From Paenarthrobacter sp. GOM3 (GTDB lineage: Bacteria > Actinomycetota > Actinomycetes > Actinomycetales > Micrococcaceae), in NCBI RefSeq assembly GCF_018215265.2, contig NZ_CP136562.1, positions 1,240,001 through 1,304,000 on the forward strand: a stretch of DNA of 64,000 bases, given 5' to 3'. Shown here one piece after another: positions 64-48,542 of the stretch. The notes under the pieces were generated by a model that was given only the letters and a program-made list of their open reading frames with translations, ran no database searches and had not been told where the DNA came from. Numbering within the stretch: the stretch's first letter is position 1; every line of letters begins with the position of its first letter. Both the position numbers and the translations under genes were made by a program.

Positions 64-915
64 GTGGTAAAGATGCTGCTCTCAGTCCTGCAGGCAAACG
101 CTTCCGTCATGGATGTCGAGGCGAACCTGCGCACCATTGACGACGCCGCGCAGCGAGCCGCCCACGCCGGGGCCGGACTGCTCCTCACACCCGAGCTGTT
201 CCCCCTTGGATACGCGCCCCTGCGACTCCATGCTGAACTTGACCCGGCCACACTGCCTGGCATCCGGGAACGCCTGGCCGGGATCGCCCGGTCCCACGGC
301 ATTGGCCTGGTCTACAGCCTTCCCGCCCTGGCGTCGGGGGAGGAAACGCACGACGGCGGAGAGTCGCCTGTCGCTCATAGCGCCTGGAACATCACGGCTA
401 CTCTGCTGGACGCAACGGGAGCCGAGATCCTCAACTACGCCAAGGTCCACCTCTTCGGCCCGGAGGAACTCAAGGCGTTCGTCGGCGCCCAAGAACCTCC
501 CGCCGTCGTGGATTTCAATGGAATCCGGACATCGATGCTGATTTGCTACGACGTCGAATTCCCGGAAGCAGTCAGGGCCGCCGCAACAAGGGGTGCCGAA
601 CTCCTGCTCGTGCCAACGGCGCTGTCCGCCGGATTCGAGAACGTCCCGCAGGTCCTCATCCGGGCCCGCGCCTTGGAAAGCCAGCTCAACGTGGCCTATG
701 CCAACCACTCCGGGCACGAGGACGTGTACAACTTCCTGGGCGGCAGCGTGGTGGCCGGACCGGACGGTTCATTGCTCGCCGCCGCGGGGGAGTCCGCCGC
801 GCTGCTGTTCGCCGAGGTGGGCACAGAGACGGTCAAAGCTGCCCGGGACGATGTACCGTACCTTCGCGAACGCCGCCCTGACCTCTACAACCGGTGGGAG
901 CAGCGCGGTTCCTAG
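64..915 (+). CDS. Carbon-nitrogen hydrolase, DavA-like 5-aminovaleramidase candidate
   Basis: A 283-residue nitrilase-superfamily amidase. The catalytic triad is visible as E44 (in LLTPELFPLGY), K127 (in NYAKVHLFG) and C161 (in LICYDVEFPE). The NYxKxHLFG and ICYDxEFPE blocks and the C-terminal VPYLRERRPDLY resemble, from memory, Pseudomonas DavA, which hydrolyses 5-aminovaleramide to 5-aminovalerate and ammonia in the lysine monooxygenase route. A DavB-like lysine 2-monooxygenase lies at 10313-12016 on the same strand, which supports this substrate. The enzyme should be cytoplasmic (no signal peptide). The start is GTG at 64; the preceding 60 bases show no clear gene. Alternative: another omega- or aliphatic amidase. 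The family is certain, the substrate is inferred. Confidence 0.8.
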   Translation: MVKMLLSVLQANASVMDVEANLRTIDDAAQRAAHAGAGLLLTPELFPLGYAPLRLHAELDPATLPGIRERLAGIARSHGIGLVYSLPALASGEETHDGGESPVAHSAWNITATLLDATGAEILNYAKVHLFGPEELKAFVGAQEPPAVVDFNGIRTSMLICYDVEFPEAVRAAATRGAELLLVPTALSAGFENVPQVLIRARALESQLNVAYANHSGHEDVYNFLGGSVVAGPDGSLLAAAGESAALLFAEVGTETVKAARDDVPYLRERRPDLYNRWEQRGS

Positions 916-1321
916 ACGGAGTGCTGTGTTGCGTTCGGGAACCGCCCTAAGGGCGCGCTGTTGGAAGTCGCCCCATCAATATCCTGCGTGTTTGTATGGG
1001 GCAGGACTGCCGTCAACGTAGCTAAGGCCCAGGACCTGCCACTCAGTGAAGCTCTTGAGTCATACCGTGCGGCGGAATGGCTTACTTACACGAAGGCCCC
1101 TGCCAATTTAGAAAGTTGTGATCACCGTCGACGAGCCAAAGCAGAAAGCGTTCTACGAAGCGCTCGGCTACACCCAGGCCGAGGAATTCCAAGGAGGATC
1201 GGTCAGAGCCTTCATCAGATTCGACTGACGGCATCCGTCAGCTCATCCCAAAATAGGGATCGATGCTTACGGTCGCGGTGCGTGACTCCGTTTGAGCGGG
1301 TTGGCTTGCTTTACTGGGGGC
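916..1321. other. Gene-poor spacer between davA-like gene and phosphatase
   Basis: About 400 bases without an intact gene. The only recognisable coding content is the acetyltransferase tail at 1112-1228. The first 200 bases show nothing I can assign. The right end (about 1306-1321) carries a possible TTTACT -10 box six bases before the phosphatase ATG. Confidence 0.5.
1112..1228 (+). pseudogene. C-terminal remnant of a GNAT-like acetyltransferase
   Basis: A short open stretch ending in TGA at 1226-1228 encodes a 38-residue peptide containing QKAFYEALGYTQAEEF. The AFYEALGY core is the typical last helix and strand of GNAT acetyltransferases. A TAG lies directly upstream in frame (1109-1111) and no acetyl-CoA binding loop (RxxGxG) is found before it, so only the tail of the gene survives. 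It is a decayed fragment at the left boundary of the accessory stretch. Family assignment rests on this one motif. Confidence 0.5.
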
Positions 1322-2083
1322 ATGGAAAAATCCGTTGGCGAAGACCGCACCCTGCACGCTGACGGGCTACTCAATGGCCGTGACCTAGGAGGGCTCAAGC
1401 GTGCCGACGGGACCCTGACGCCTCGTGGGATATTCTTCCGCAGTGAAAATGTCGACTTGCTCACCGTAAGCGGGTGGCAATCCATCTACGACGCCGGGAT
1501 CCGCACAGTGGTCGACCTGCGCCAACAACGGGAGCGGGAGATGGATATAAAGGAGCGACCCCCATGGCTCACAACCGTCCACGTTGATCTCGACGGCTTG
1601 GAGAACACGGATTTCTGGGCAAGCTACTGGGACAGCGGCTTGGTGGGCACGGCCCTCTATTTCCTGCCATATCTCACGGCAATGCCTGAACGTGCAGGCT
1701 CAGCTCTTTCTTCGATCCTGAATGCGCCATCAGGCGGCGTCCTTTTCCATTGCATGGGCGGCAGGGATAGAACCGGGATTATCTCCATGCTCCTGCTGTC
1801 GGCGGTGGGGGTCCAACACGAGGCTATTGTTCACGATTATCTGGAAACCGTGAGACTTGGGGATATACGTTCTGCCAGCAGCAATCGAAACAGTGCCGAA
1901 CCCGAGCTCAATGAACTCTGCGTGCGCCACGGAACGACCACAGAGGGAGCGTTTCGAGCCGCTCTGGCTGGCTTCGACTTGGACGTTTTTATTACGGCTG
2001 CAGGGCTTAATGACGAAGACCGCGCAGCACTTGCTTCCTGGCGCGGTAGCGTCGACTGCCGTCCTGCAGGATCTGCGATCTAA
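1322..2083 (+). CDS. Tyrosine/serine protein phosphatase, Y_phosphatase3 type
   Basis: A 253-residue cytoplasmic phosphatase. The P-loop HCMGGRDRTG (HC-x5-R, about residues 144-153) is the cysteine-based active site; the N-terminal NGRDLGGL and the GIFFRSENVDLLT strand are hallmarks of the MptpB/IphP-like family (Pfam Y_phosphatase3). It should dephosphorylate phosphotyrosine or phosphoserine proteins, or phosphoinositides. ATG at 1322 is chosen over an in-frame TTG at 1292 because the family normally begins shortly before the NGRDLGG block. A TTTACT box six bases upstream would give a leaderless transcript. It stands alone, followed by the ECF sigma gene, with no known functional link. Confidence 0.85.
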   Translation: MEKSVGEDRTLHADGLLNGRDLGGLKRADGTLTPRGIFFRSENVDLLTVSGWQSIYDAGIRTVVDLRQQREREMDIKERPPWLTTVHVDLDGLENTDFWASYWDSGLVGTALYFLPYLTAMPERAGSALSSILNAPSGGVLFHCMGGRDRTGIISMLLLSAVGVQHEAIVHDYLETVRLGDIRSASSNRNSAEPELNELCVRHGTTTEGAFRAALAGFDLDVFITAAGLNDEDRAALASWRGSVDCRPAGSAI

Positions 2084-2137
2084 AGCTGTGGCAACCGCCT
2101 GAATTCGTCGATCCTTCAGCGATGTTTGTTCGGATTC

Positions 2138-2166
2138 GGGAACTTTTCTGCGGGCATCGGACACTA
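2138..2166 (+). promoter_or_regulatory. Possible ECF-type promoter before the sigma gene
   Basis: GGGAAC at 2138-2143 resembles the GGAAC -35 element recognised by many ECF sigma factors. It is followed about 17 bases later by ACACTA, just ahead of the sigma gene ATG at 2173. This would fit autoregulation, but the -10 is not a typical CGTC/CGTT, so the call is weak. Confidence 0.25.
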
Positions 2167-2172
2167 CTAGGT

Positions 2173-2778
2173 ATGAACGACTTGGGGGAACAGGATGCTG
2201 AGCTTTGGACGAGATGCGTTGATGGGGACGCGGATGCGCTTGGATTGCTGTTCGACCGGCATTCGGATGCTGTCTTTCGATATTGCCTGAGTCGCACGGG
2301 ATCTTGGCACGAGGCTGAAGAGCTCGTCTCGGTCACGTTCCTGGAAGCCTGGCGGCAACGCAGGACTTTGACCTTGCAGCGGGACTCGCTACTGCCGTGG
2401 TTGCTCGGCGTGGCTACGAACGCTGCACGAAACAGCGCCCGTTCCACTCGCAGATACGAACAGTTCCTGGGCCGGCTCCCACACACGCCCTCCGTTCCGG
2501 ACCACTCCACAGCAGCTGACGAGCGGATAGACACCGAGCGGCAAGTCCAGGAGCTGCTCTACGGAACCACAGCCCTCACCGATGGTGAACGGGATGTCTT
2601 GCTGCTGTGTGTGATGAACGGCTACAGCTACGAAGAAACCGCCACCGCACTGGGCATCCGCGTCGGCACTGTCCGCTCCAGGGCTAACCGGGCCAAGAAA
2701 AAACTTCGCTCAGCCGCCCCGCATCTCCTCGCCGACACCCCGGAAAGCCTCACTACCCTGGAATCGAGGTTGTCATGA
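2173..2778 (+). CDS. ECF-family RNA polymerase sigma factor
   Basis: A 201-residue extracytoplasmic-function sigma factor. Region 2 is seen in LLFDRHSDAVFRYCLSRTG followed by EAEELVSVTFLEAW (about residues 24-62); region 4 is the helix-turn-helix YSYEETATALGIRVGTVRSR near residues 156-176. No extra C-terminal domain is present. ATG 2173 is preferred to an in-frame ATG at 2122 because region 2 normally starts within the first 20-25 residues. Its stop overlaps the next ATG by four bases (ATGA at 2775), so it is translationally coupled to the membrane-anchored protein that follows. That arrangement is typical of a sigma factor with its own regulator or sensor. The regulon is unknown. Confidence 0.9.
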   Translation: MNDLGEQDAELWTRCVDGDADALGLLFDRHSDAVFRYCLSRTGSWHEAEELVSVTFLEAWRQRRTLTLQRDSLLPWLLGVATNAARNSARSTRRYEQFLGRLPHTPSVPDHSTAADERIDTERQVQELLYGTTALTDGERDVLLLCVMNGYSYEETATALGIRVGTVRSRANRAKKKLRSAAPHLLADTPESLTTLESRLS

Positions 2779-3434
2779 ACCTTTCAGACGTTCTCTATCC
2801 CGCAGACACCAAACAGGCTGTCCGTAATTTGCTCATTCAAGAAGCCCGCAAACAGCCAAAACGCGTCCCGTGGTGGCGGAAACCCGCGGCGCTGACCTTC
2901 GCCGGCCTGGCCCTCGCAGGCAGCACGGCGGCGGGTGTCTACGTGGCACTGGCACCGGTTGAGGACAAGCGAGACATCCGTTGCTATTTCCACGCCGACC
3001 TCACCACCACCTATCCAGTTGCAGGGTCTCCCGGCGACTTCATGCCTCCGTACATCACCACCGGAATATTTATCACCGGCTTTGACGCCAGAAACAATCC
3101 CTCGCCGGATGACCCCAACGCGGGAATGATGCAGGTCCAAGACCCTATAGCGAGCTGCGCAGCCCTTTGGGACACCAACGCCATGAACCCCGACGGCATC
3201 ACCGATGACCTGATACCTGAGGATTTCCCCAGTCCGGCCGAAGTGCCGGTATCGGAAACATGGACGGGGGATCTGGACGCCGAAGGAAACCCGATGATCC
3301 CCTCGGGAACACGCGTAACTTCCGGCCATTACGTTCCCGAACTCACCGAGTGCGTCGTTGACAATTCCGTTGCTGTCATCCCGGGCAATGCCGAAGTGTG
3401 CGCCAAACTCGGCATCCCGGCCCTCGAAAAATAG
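2775..3434 (+). CDS. Membrane-anchored four-cysteine protein, candidate ECF regulator
   Basis: A 219-residue protein I do not recognise. Residues 1-35 are a charged, presumably cytoplasmic segment, 36-60 a single transmembrane helix (LTFAGLALAG and following), and the rest an exported domain beginning DKRDIRCYFHADL. Cysteines fall at 70, 128, 193 and 209. The topology is that of a short anti-sigma factor with an outside sensor domain, but no HXXXCXXC zinc motif or known anti-sigma fold is visible. The gene overlaps the ECF sigma stop by four bases. The exported domain is paralogous to the next gene. Function is inferred from position only. Confidence 0.75.
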   Translation: MNLSDVLYPADTKQAVRNLLIQEARKQPKRVPWWRKPAALTFAGLALAGSTAAGVYVALAPVEDKRDIRCYFHADLTTTYPVAGSPGDFMPPYITTGIFITGFDARNNPSPDDPNAGMMQVQDPIASCAALWDTNAMNPDGITDDLIPEDFPSPAEVPVSETWTGDLDAEGNPMIPSGTRVTSGHYVPELTECVVDNSVAVIPGNAEVCAKLGIPALEK

Positions 3435-3459
3435 CCGAAACCTACTGAACAGGCAGAAC

Positions 3460-4164
3460 ATGAAGAAGTCCACCACCGCCTTGACCCTGGCAGCTCTTAT
3501 CGCTGCCGGCGGGATCTATTACACCGCCACTACCGCCGCCAGTGCTTTCGCCGCCGCTGGAACTGATCAGCGCGCCCCTGGCGCTGCCTCCTCGACCGGG
3601 CCTGCAACCGCCCCAGTGTTCGTAGCGATACCTGGCGCTTCCTCGGATGCCATGCCCGTCGTCGGCTTGGATCCTGTAGCTGTGGACGACAAGCGCGACA
3701 TCCGCTGCTACTACCGGGCCGACCTGACATCCGAATACCAGAGTCCAGGATTCCCAGAGGCGCCCAGGCCTCCCTTCGTGGGAACCGGTATCGAAGAAGT
3801 CGGATTCGATGCGAAGACCAACCCAACACCCGAAGACGCCAGTTCCGGGCTGCTGCAGGTCAGCGACCCCATCAACCAGTGCAGCCGGGTGTGGGACCTG
3901 GGAGGCATGATCCTGAACGGAATCAACGACGATCTGGTGCCTGAAGACTTCATCGCCGCGCCCCCGGGCGTGCCCGCCGAACATACCCTGGGATCGGGCA
4001 AGGACCAGAACGGCAAACCCCTCTACAACGATCCAAGCATCAGGACCTTCGGCAACTTCATCCCCTTCCTCACCGAATGCGTCGTTGAAGGAAAAGTGAG
4101 CGTCATTCCCGGTACAGCAGACATCTGCCACGAGCTTGGCGTTCCCGCCCTCGCAAAGACCTAG
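3460..4164 (+). CDS. Exported four-cysteine paralog of the preceding protein
   Basis: A 234-residue protein with an N-terminal Sec-type signal or anchor (MKKSTTALTLAALIAAGGIY) and a Pro/Ala/Ser-rich linker to about residue 75. The domain from DDKRDIRCYYRADL is clearly homologous to the upstream protein: shared blocks include GFDA, NGINDDLVPEDF versus DGITDDLIPEDF, and TECVVxxxVxVIPGxAxxC. Cysteines at 83, 141, 207 and 223 keep the spacing of the paralog (58/66/16 versus 58/65/16), suggesting two conserved disulfides. It lacks the cytoplasmic segment of its neighbour, so it could be a secreted partner, decoy or ligand. ATG 3460 is chosen because the signal peptide starts there. No known family is recognised. 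Confidence 0.75.
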   Translation: MKKSTTALTLAALIAAGGIYYTATTAASAFAAAGTDQRAPGAASSTGPATAPVFVAIPGASSDAMPVVGLDPVAVDDKRDIRCYYRADLTSEYQSPGFPEAPRPPFVGTGIEEVGFDAKTNPTPEDASSGLLQVSDPINQCSRVWDLGGMILNGINDDLVPEDFIAAPPGVPAEHTLGSGKDQNGKPLYNDPSIRTFGNFIPFLTECVVEGKVSVIPGTADICHELGVPALAKT

Positions 4165-4201: not shown

Positions 4202-5614
4202 TCAGTGGGAGAAGTCCGCTGAGATCTCGGCGAGGGTGCGTCCCTTGGTTTCAGGCGCGAGCCATTGCGAGAGGATTGCGCCGAGTAACGCAACTCCGGC
4301 GGCTACCACCATGGTTGGGCCCATGCCGAAGGTGCTGATGGACCATGGCAGGGCGAAGGTGCCGAGTGCGGCGCCGATGCGGCTGAAGGCCGCGGCGAAG
4401 CCCATGCCGATGCCGCGCAGGTGGCCTGGGAATACTTCGGCCGGATAGACCTGGGTCATGGTGGTGTAGCCGGCATTGAAGAAGGAGAAAGCGAGGAACA
4501 GGACCAGTACCAGGATCGCTGGTGCGTCCGCCCAAACTCCGATGACCAGCAGGATGCCTGCGCAGAGCCACTGCCCGGGTACGGTGAGGATTCGGCGGCC
4601 CAGCTTGTCGATCAGAAGTACGGTGGTGACAACACCCGCGGCTGCAAGTGCGGACAGTCCGACGCCGCCTGCCCAGCCGCCACCGAGACCGATTTCTTTG
4701 AGCACATCGTCGGCGAAGGTCGCGATTGCGAAGTATGGTGTGACGGCACAGAACCAGAAGCCGGCGGTGAAGAGTGTGGTGCGCCAGTACTGCTTGGAGA
4801 ACAGCATTCCGAAGGAGGCGTTCTTGATTGTGGTTTTGCTCTTCGCGGCTTGCGCCTCCTGGATCATCCTCAGATCCATCTCTTCGGTGATGCTCTCACG
4901 CATCTGGGGCGATTCGACGTATTTGCGTGCGATCGCCAGTGCTTCGTCATGCCGTCCCTTTGTAATGAGCCAGCTCGGTGATTCGGGCAGGCCCAAGCGG
5001 GCGACGAACAGGACGAGCGCGAGTATGGTGCTGGTGCCGATGACGAGGCGCCATGGGGTGCCGGCGTCGTGCAGGAGCGTGCCCACGATGAAGGCCATCA
5101 TGAAGCCGACGTACCAGGCGATCAGGGTCAGCCCGAGCAACCGACCGCGGAGCTTGGGAGGGGAGAACTCCGAGAGCAAGGGCCCGCCGATTGAGTACTC
5201 GCCGCCGATTGCGACGCCCATGAAGAACCGGATGATGGCCAGTTGGATCACGGCTCCGTCTCCGGAGGTTATGAAGAATTGGGCTCCGGAAGCGATCAGG
5301 AACAGGCCCATATCCACCAGGAACATGGGCTTGCGTCCAAATTTGTCTGTAGCCCAGCCGGCCAGCGGGGAGCCTACGAAAATTCCCACCAGCGGACCTG
5401 CTGCGATCATGCCGAGCGATAGTTCGTTGAGCTGGAGGTCTGTCCGCATGAGTCCGGCTACGGGCCCGATGATTCCGAGGATGTAGCCGTCGAGGAACAT
5501 CCCGCCGATGAAGACAGCCACAAGCCGCACCATGAAACGGCGTTTGAACGTGGAGCTGGTCTCTTTTGAGATGGAGGGGTCGACGGCTGCCGTCGCCCTG
5601 CTCGGTTGATTCAT
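4202..5614 (-). CDS. MFS metabolite transporter (sugar-porter/AAHS-like)
   Basis: A 470-residue transporter of about twelve membrane segments. Signature motifs are DKFGRKP after helix 2, the RFFMGVAIGGEYSIGGPLLSEF stretch of helices 4-5 with the following RGR, PESPSWL in the central loop, DKLGRR in the second half and PETKGRTL at the C-terminus. These fit the sugar porter or aromatic/metabolite:proton symporter groups; the substrate cannot be read from sequence. ATG 5614 is chosen over an ATG 45 bases upstream because AAGGGA lies at proper spacing before it. It is convergent with the four-cysteine gene and separated by 247 bases from the pucR gene upstream, so it has its own promoter. Import of a catabolite is a guess from the neighbours. 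Confidence 0.8.
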   Translation of the reverse strand: MNQPSRATAAVDPSISKETSSTFKRRFMVRLVAVFIGGMFLDGYILGIIGPVAGLMRTDLQLNELSLGMIAAGPLVGIFVGSPLAGWATDKFGRKPMFLVDMGLFLIASGAQFFITSGDGAVIQLAIIRFFMGVAIGGEYSIGGPLLSEFSPPKLRGRLLGLTLIAWYVGFMMAFIVGTLLHDAGTPWRLVIGTSTILALVLFVARLGLPESPSWLITKGRHDEALAIARKYVESPQMRESITEEMDLRMIQEAQAAKSKTTIKNASFGMLFSKQYWRTTLFTAGFWFCAVTPYFAIATFADDVLKEIGLGGGWAGGVGLSALAAAGVVTTVLLIDKLGRRILTVPGQWLCAGILLVIGVWADAPAILVLVLFLAFSFFNAGYTTMTQVYPAEVFPGHLRGIGMGFAAAFSRIGAALGTFALPWSISTFGMGPTMVVAAGVALLGAILSQWLAPETKGRTLAEISADFSH

Positions 5615-5861
5615 TGAGATGTGTTCCCTTCTGGCTTCAGCGCAAACCGCTGACGGCACCAGGGCGCCGCTTCCTGACGTTCGGACAGACGCGGTCCTTA
5701 GCGACCTACGGACAAAGCCCGACTGGCACGATGCCAGCCGGTGGCGGGGCCGCGAGGTGAATTACGGCGTGGTCAAAACCCAGAGTCGATGGGGTGGATG
5801 TGACATACGACTCATATATCAGAACTCTAAGTGTGCGATCCGCCACAGTCAAGCTTTTTTC

Positions 5862-47740: not shown

Positions 47741-47782
47741 TCCCAAGGCTGGGACGTAGCGAACGACGTCCCGGCCGTGGGA
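47741..47782 (+). terminator. Hairpin between the two DedA genes
   Basis: Arms TCCCAAGGCTGGGACGT and ACGTCCCGGCCGTGGGA with two mismatches and a short loop. Probable terminator of the first DedA gene. Confidence 0.5.
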
Positions 47783-47840: not shown

Positions 47841-48542
47841 GTGGAGTCTTTGAACCAAATGCTCGAGCATGCAGCCGGGCAGCCCTGGATTTACCCGGTA
47901 CTCCTGGTCTTCTTCTTTATTGACGGATTTGCCACCATCCTGCCCAGTGAAACGGCCATCGTTGGCCTCTCGGCGCTGTCCCTTCACAGCGGAGAGCCCA
48001 ACCTGTGGATCCTTGGGGCCACAGCACTGGTCGGTGCCATGGCCGGCGACAACATGGCATACATGCTGGGCCGCAAAATCGGCCTTACCCGCTGGAAGTG
48101 GATGCGACGACCCAAAGTCCAGAAGATGTTCGCCTGGGCCCAATACGAGCTGGATAAGCGCGGAGCGGTCCTCATCTTCACGGCCCGCTACATTCCCTGG
48201 GGACGCGTCGCGGTGAACTACGTGGCAGGCCAGACCGGCTTCCGTCACCGGACCTTCTTCCTCCTGGACGCCTTCGCGTGCGTCACCTGGGTGGGATACT
48301 CCATCGGCATCGGCCTCCTCGCCGGCCAGTGGGTACACAACAACCCACTGCTCGGTGTCGGCATTGCGGTGGCATTCGCGGTGGTCCTCGGCATCGTGGT
48401 TGACCACGCATTGCGCTGGTGGCACAAGTACCTGGAGAGGAAAGACCACGCCCGCGAGGCTGCGGCATCTGCGCAGGCAACCAAGCCGGACCCGCAGCAA
48501 AACGCAGTTGCCGGCGTCGACCTCTCCAAGCCGGCCGGCTAA
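47841..48542 (+). CDS. DedA-family membrane protein, copy 2
   Basis: A 233-residue paralog of the preceding protein. It shows the same blocks in order: AAGQPWIYPVLLVFFFIDGF, LPSETAIVGLSALS, GDNMAYMLGRKIG and TARYIPWGRVAVNYVAG. The C-terminal 40 residues are soluble and Ala/Lys-rich. GTG 47841 has AGGAG ten bases upstream. The pair probably arose by tandem duplication and may have different lipid substrates. Confidence 0.88.
   Translation: MESLNQMLEHAAGQPWIYPVLLVFFFIDGFATILPSETAIVGLSALSLHSGEPNLWILGATALVGAMAGDNMAYMLGRKIGLTRWKWMRRPKVQKMFAWAQYELDKRGAVLIFTARYIPWGRVAVNYVAGQTGFRHRTFFLLDAFACVTWVGYSIGIGLLAGQWVHNNPLLGVGIAVAFAVVLGIVVDHALRWWHKYLERKDHAREAAASAQATKPDPQQNAVAGVDLSKPAG

Follow-up and report, generated by a model that had tools for sequence, protein, structure and literature searches.

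The pairing of an ECF sigma factor with a membrane anti-sigma factor is already a known kind of bacterial regulatory system. In Clostridium thermocellum, RsgI, the anti-sigma factor of sigmaI, has outside sensor domains similar to modules that are found in secreted proteins. SigmaI is not counted among the ECF sigma factors, and its targets are many enzymes, unlike the one sensor copy found at the locus described here. DUF3298 is among the domains of RsiV-type proteins. RsiV, the membrane anti-sigma factor of sigmaV in Bacillus subtilis, binds lysozyme directly through its outside domain and is then cleaved (PMC6066255, PMC4598750); it is described as lacking cysteines of its own and as carrying DUF4179 (PMC6066255). 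With regard to how the sigma factor is held, class I anti-sigma domains (ASDI), some of which carry a zinc motif, are cytoplasmic four-helix domains with a mean length of about 100 amino acids, and at least 50 amino acids in the published set (PMC7406223), and class II anti-sigma factors such as CnrY and NepR embrace sigma2 and sigma4 with a short two-helix part (PMC8103513). For the CU044_5270 family (NF038083), the closest analogue of the protein studied here, the open-licence PMC papers searched describe no function.

Here we analyse an ECF sigma factor locus in Paenarthrobacter sp. GOM3, the genome of which is a single contig of 4.46 Mb. Coordinates refer to the window, the whole stretch of 64,000 nucleotides that was analysed.

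Results

The locus is a unit of three genes, all on the + strand. The first (2173–2778; 201 amino acids) is joined to the second (2775–3434; 219 amino acids), which encodes a bitopic four-cysteine protein (P0002), by a four-base ATGA overlap. The third gene (3460–4164; 234 amino acids) begins 25 bases downstream in the same operon and encodes a secreted paralog (P0003). The overlap and all coordinates given in the initial annotation of this DNA were exact to the base. The product of the first gene is an ECF sigma factor that combines regions 2 and 4 in one short protein: Pfam Sigma70_r2 (PF04542) matches residues 26–94 (E = 4.8e-14), Sigma70_r4_2 (PF08281) matches residues 134–178 (E = 1.4e-13) and TIGR02937 scores 75.5 bits against a cut-off of 42.9. 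In a tree, the protein stands with related sigma factors. A tyrosine-phosphatase-like gene (1322–2083, + strand; PF13350, E = 3.2e-37) lies directly 5' of the cassette, and a sugar-transporter-like gene (4202–5659) follows 3' on the opposite strand. Plasmid and phage collections yielded no match to the cassette, so a mobile-element reading finds no support there.

P0002 has a single hydrophobic stretch, at residues 42–60 (2898–2954; Kyte–Doolittle maximum of 1.64 over 19 residues), with about 41 residues ahead of the membrane. Its cytoplasmic start (residues 1–36; 2775–2882) is the probable sigma-binding segment, as judged from gene linkage, a natural chimera and a structural model that are described below. 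The domain outside the membrane (residues 62–219; 2958–3431) carries cysteines at positions 70, 128, 193 and 209. P0003 begins with a Lys-Lys N-terminus, followed by a hydrophobic peak at residues 8–26, where the Kyte–Doolittle value of 1.32 falls short of the 1.6 required for membrane spans, and by Ala-Phe-Ala, recognised by eye as a typical signal-peptide site; residues 1–31 (3460–3552) are therefore a probable signal peptide. Its own four-cysteine domain (residues 75–234; 3682–4161), defined by alignment with P0002 and by cysteine conservation, has cysteines at 83, 141, 207 and 223, and both sets of positions agree with those noted earlier. In a single pairwise comparison, P0002 and P0003 were 45% identical over 196 amino acids (E = 2e-53), so that their likeness is not due to chance and the second protein is, as had been proposed, a paralog of the outside part of the sensor.

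Domain databases gave little to place these proteins. Neither P0002 nor P0003 matched a Pfam family, and the four-cysteine domain matched no Pfam or NCBIfam family. The N-terminus of P0002 gave a sub-threshold match of 13.7 bits to the NCBIfam family CU044_5270 (cut-off 100). The initial annotation had seen no known anti-sigma motif, which is borne out by the empty Pfam result for both proteins and by that sub-threshold match as the only NCBIfam match of the bitopic protein; the domain database search that it had suggested matched no known enzyme or binding family. Among PDB sequences, no match was found for P0002 at E = 1, and the best match of profile A1 had an E value of 0.78.

A search of 5.8 billion proteins returned 94 relatives. 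Profile searches, both of which scored only the 8,000 candidates sharing most words, returned 124 relatives (the best 120 of the 124 were listed) and, with divergent members included in the profile, 148 (the best 120 of the 148 were listed). No precomputed Pfam domain was found among the matches listed in the protein searches, and the named hosts among the matches listed were mostly Arthrobacter, Pseudarthrobacter, Paenarthrobacter and Sinomonas; the nearest relative bearing an organism name was a protein of Paenarthrobacter nitroguajacolicus (84%). Counted by genome, with GOM3 included each time, the family was present in 6 of 59 genomes of relatives, 31 of 395 in a family-level sample, 3 of 297 in an order-level sample and 5 of 396 in a phylum-level sample that was searched with the divergent profile. 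The distribution is therefore patchy. On the plasmid pE5100 of Pseudarthrobacter sp. NamE5 (L012), a stretch of about 4 kb holds two sigma/four-cysteine cassettes, and the four-cysteine gene of the first is split over two frames. At the Sinomonas humi locus (L031/L048), the sigma gene and the four-cysteine gene each lie in several frames, which marks a decaying cassette.

An ECF-type promoter motif, GGGAACYT-N12-BGGACACTA, is located at 2138–2166 on the + strand, six bases 5' of the sigma ATG. The motif is conserved 5' of related sigma genes, with a variable middle, and its only exact match in the GOM3 genome is the one ahead of the cassette sigma gene. One to four mismatches to it are seen at the divergent loci L047, L053–L055 and L058–L061 and at L056, the locus of the chimera; at L037 the spacing is one shorter, and at L065 the best motif has five mismatches, which is noise level. 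We searched 20 genomes, picked for carrying the family, for near-exact sites (at most one mismatch) and found 23 sites in 17 of them. In 22 cases an intact sigma gene follows, its ATG set off from the site by exactly 6 nt, and the 23rd site preceded a truncated sigma gene (L135). The three genomes that had no near-exact site (G016, G434 and G437) contain only sigma-less members of the family. Because a backward control of the same search gave 22 hits versus 23, the promoter argument rests on the position of the sites and not on their number. Three of the 23 sites (L135, L150 and L151) belong to a related sigma factor. At L150 and L151 (genome G221; 1501–3028), the near-identical promoter and the related sigma gene are followed by a gene whose bitopic product has an outside domain of a third type, for which no match was found; this arrangement is present in two copies in this one genome.

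Relaxed searches of the GOM3 genome showed no excess: 49 hits at up to three mismatches versus 76 in the backward control, and eight versus eight for the motif core at one mismatch. Thirty of the 49 hits were inspected. They comprised the cassette's own operon, a site 5' of the sigma gene of a CU044_5270 cassette (L078) and an intergenic site (L088), and the remainder fell inside open frames of at least 80 amino acids on either strand. Similarly, six of seven one-mismatch core sites were in long open frames, and the seventh was the window site at 47759. This intergenic site (L088; 47759–47787) has three mismatches and lies 53 bases 5' of an open reading frame (47841–48542) that is DedA-like (named by eye); 0.47 three-mismatch sites are expected per window by chance. 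The CU044_5270 cassette is a second ECF cassette of GOM3 (G000:C1:400248–401864; L078, L108 and L153) and consists of a sigma gene and a CU044_5270 gene; three positions distinguish its promoter from the four-cysteine promoter. No sigma-type promoter was found within five mismatches 5' of the sigma-less genes L005, L007, L029, L030, L049 and L050, and sigma-less L028 had one site at five mismatches, again noise level. Because a sigma gene follows the single exact site in GOM3 as well as each of the 23 near-exact sites, the detectable regulon would, so far as the motif tells, be the cassette itself, as judged by a strict motif that misses weak promoters. We infer that transcription is leaderless and autoregulated. 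With the detectable regulon equal to the cassette, the secreted paralog would be its sole non-regulatory product.

Of 36 cassettes, 7 (L001, L010, L011, L013, L018, L032 and L040) have the secreted gene directly behind the membrane gene, and the other 29 lack it there. We analysed mosaicism in 12 complete pairs, leaving out P0015/P0121 in which P0121 is truncated. Identity within an operon was 33–84% in the middle part and 56–70% in the C-terminal part, and the nearest neighbour was of a protein's own class for the C-terminal part in 22 of the 24 proteins, for the middle part in 18 and for the first part in 19. This pattern suggests that in some lineages the two genes have swapped middle parts whereas each class has kept its own end, and such an exchange would fit two proteins that face a common partner. 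The sensor and the secreted copy of GOM3 are of opposite sequence type, but we discarded this as a general rule, as same-type pairs exist among 13 aligned pairs. We hold it plausible, if not quite probable, that the secreted paralog functions within this sigma circuit, acting as a decoy or scavenger. It could also lie outside the circuit, as a duplicated cell-surface protein left beside its parent. Its presence behind only seven cassettes and the existence of secreted or lipoprotein-like relatives without a sigma gene would suit such a bystander; however, every paralog that directly follows a membrane gene belongs to the sole operon that the motif detects, and several pairs appear to have exchanged middle parts with the membrane gene, which makes this explanation rather unlikely.

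The presence of the cytoplasmic start is tightly linked to the sigma gene. A sigma gene was found directly upstream, on the same strand, of all 36 non-redundant four-cysteine genes or gene pieces that have the start, and no copy with the start was found to lack one, an outcome that favours the initial annotation as regards the membrane protein. Among 24 stretches without the start, several of which are fragments and seven of which come second in a cassette, as its secreted gene, only the divergent L065 was behind a sigma gene. Start-less relatives are secreted, lipoprotein-like (L028 and L030) or equipped with another start (L005, L029 and L049), and the flanking DNA examined beside these five loci contained no sigma gene. 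In L028/L046 and L030, which have no adjoining sigma gene, a lipobox-like cysteine follows the hydrophobic stretch (by eye). Across 22 named loci, viewed with up to 5 kb per side, the four-cysteine gene was present in 22 and a sigma gene in 18; other shared frames were mostly overlapping antisense frames, a resolvase-like gene recurred in a few loci, and L023, L025 and L026 have their entire neighbourhood in common. We found no support for the N-terminal segment as the mark of a wide superfamily, as a sigma gene was near only 3 of 15 weak, mostly N-terminal matches (L114–L128). L112, a partial match, has no sigma gene nearby, and L113 has one.

A natural domain swap bears on the same segment. 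At locus L056 (genome G417; 523–2231, minus strand), residues 1–34 of the encoded protein are 71% identical to the four-cysteine protein P0032, and residues 79–333 are 69% identical (256 columns) to the CU044_5270 protein of GOM3. The adjoining sigma factor is 56% identical to the cassette sigma factor and 35% identical to that of the GOM3 CU044_5270 cassette, and it groups with 15 four-cysteine sigma factors in the tree (support 96/99). The protein reaches 100 bits against CU044_5270 (cut-off 100), the sole protein with a four-cysteine-type start to do so, and is one case in 395 genomes. The alignments of the other CU044_5270-type matches listed start at residue 35 or later, with the exception of G298 (residue 20), and the listed matches that start at residue 1 are four-cysteine genes. 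Such a fusion is what would be expected if residues 1–34 must fit the sigma factor.

The linkage in all 36 cases and this one domain swap make it very probable that P0002 senses at the membrane and regulates the sigma factor, which upholds the initial proposal of a membrane sensor or anti-sigma factor, and P0002 is probably an inhibitor, that is, an anti-sigma factor. It might instead be mainly an activator or modulator in the manner of RskA, which is reported both to inhibit and to activate SigK (PMC7509140), and the linkage would serve this role equally well; however, membrane anti-sigma inhibitors are described as the commonest ECF regulators (PMC8103513). We consider a predominantly activating role improbable and retain inhibition as the preferred reading. 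Autoregulated operons often contain cargo genes, and sigma binding by P0002 is a prediction, so that P0002 might be a mere target of the sigma factor with the ATGA overlap providing translational coupling alone; this is very unlikely, as cargo need not have a cytoplasmic start that tracks the sigma gene in 36 of 36 cases, and the start was kept in L056 although the remainder of the protein was replaced.

Outside the membrane, C70, C128, C193 and C209 are invariant in 105 of 105 proteins of an alignment (A3) that we picked from among the relatives and that includes membrane-bound, secreted and lipoprotein-like forms. Because the cysteines are invariant in all three forms alike, structural disulfides would be a better fit than a switch. 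The initial annotation had suggested that disulfides could be the switch, and four invariant cysteines outside the membrane might suggest redox control of sigma release, but secreted and lipoprotein-like forms, which have no access to the sigma factor, conserve them just as strictly and the consensus shows no additional reactive cysteine, so that invariance regardless of location speaks against this idea and leaves it with a very low probability.

The AlphaFold2 model of P0002 has 109 of 219 residues at a pLDDT of at least 90, and mean values for ten-residue blocks range from 74 to 98 over residues 61–219, which span the outside domain. In the cytoplasmic start, one helix of at least four residues is predicted (residues 10–25; modest confidence). 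For L060, a shorter and divergent relative, the model (mean pLDDT of 75) shows a core in which strands are joined by two short helices, and two helices are predicted in the cytoplasmic start (12–28 and 31–38; modest to low confidence).

Discussion

We consider it fairly likely that the locus is a self-contained ECF signalling cassette that works in four steps, of which we infer the second and the fourth. The comparison of relatives suggests that the short start of P0002 (about 35 residues) binds the sigma factor and so retains it at the membrane in an inactive state. Outside, the four-cysteine domain, stabilised by what would be structural disulfides, would bind an extracellular ligand, and binding would expose P0002 to proteolysis or alter its shape and thereby free the sigma factor, in an RsiV-like manner. 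To judge from the promoter sequence, the free sigma factor would transcribe its own promoter and thus yield more sigma factor, sensor and, where present, secreted paralog. The paralog may then bind and mop up the ligand of the sensor, or one related to it, providing both protection and negative feedback as a soluble decoy receptor; alternatively, it may work together with the sensor. A broader reading, which we advance only tentatively, is a closed-loop receptor cassette: a sigma factor that targets only its own operon, an exchangeable short start that is combined with several unrelated outside domains (four-cysteine, CU044_5270 and the third type at L150), and a soluble decoy copy of the sensor domain as the sole output.

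In the open-licence PMC papers searched, we found no description of such a sensor domain, of an exchangeable start, of the single-target promoter or of a soluble copy in tandem. The locus adds an outside sensor domain that has no family model, and a candidate sigma-binding segment of very short length, to the ECF repertoire of soil actinobacteria. The swap at L056 points to residues worth testing, the precise promoter is suited to reporter use, and the sharpness of that promoter together with the small size of the operon makes the sensed signal directly testable. If the secreted copy does share the ligand of the sensor, the bacterium would respond to a signal by shedding its own receptor in soluble form, of which few cases exist.

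Among known systems, the closest analogue is CU044_5270, in which a bitopic protein is likewise encoded directly behind an ECF sigma gene, in 12 of 13 loci (L099–L111). The N-termini resemble each other (E ≤ 0.1 for 9 of the 37 four-cysteine proteins, best 7.5e-5), the two types are naturally fused in L056, and their promoters in GOM3 are somewhat similar (three mismatches). The outside domains, in contrast, are unrelated, and P0002, at 13.7 bits against a cut-off of 100 for the whole protein, is not a member of the family. P0002 is unlike class I, with about 41 residues before the membrane and no Pfam match, and its cytoplasmic start has no HxxxCxxC motif because the first cysteine is residue 70. 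Its predicted sigma-binding part is very short, like that of CnrY and NepR of class II; the start of L060, the divergent relative, has two predicted helices (modest to low confidence), whereas that of P0002 itself shows one predicted helix (10–25). By the length of this predicted part, P0002 resembles class II rather than class I, as these classes are described in PMC8103513 and PMC7406223; we assign it to neither class, nor to the RsiV type. RsiV differs in other respects: P0002, P0003 and the scanned relatives are without RsiV-type Pfam domains (the UniRef name of P0113 says 'DUF3298', with which the Pfam scan of P0113 disagrees), P0002 has four cysteines, and the tandem secreted copy found here has no counterpart mentioned in the accounts of RsiV considered (PMC6066255, PMC4598750). 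By analogy, RsiV nevertheless offers the best works-like model for P0002.
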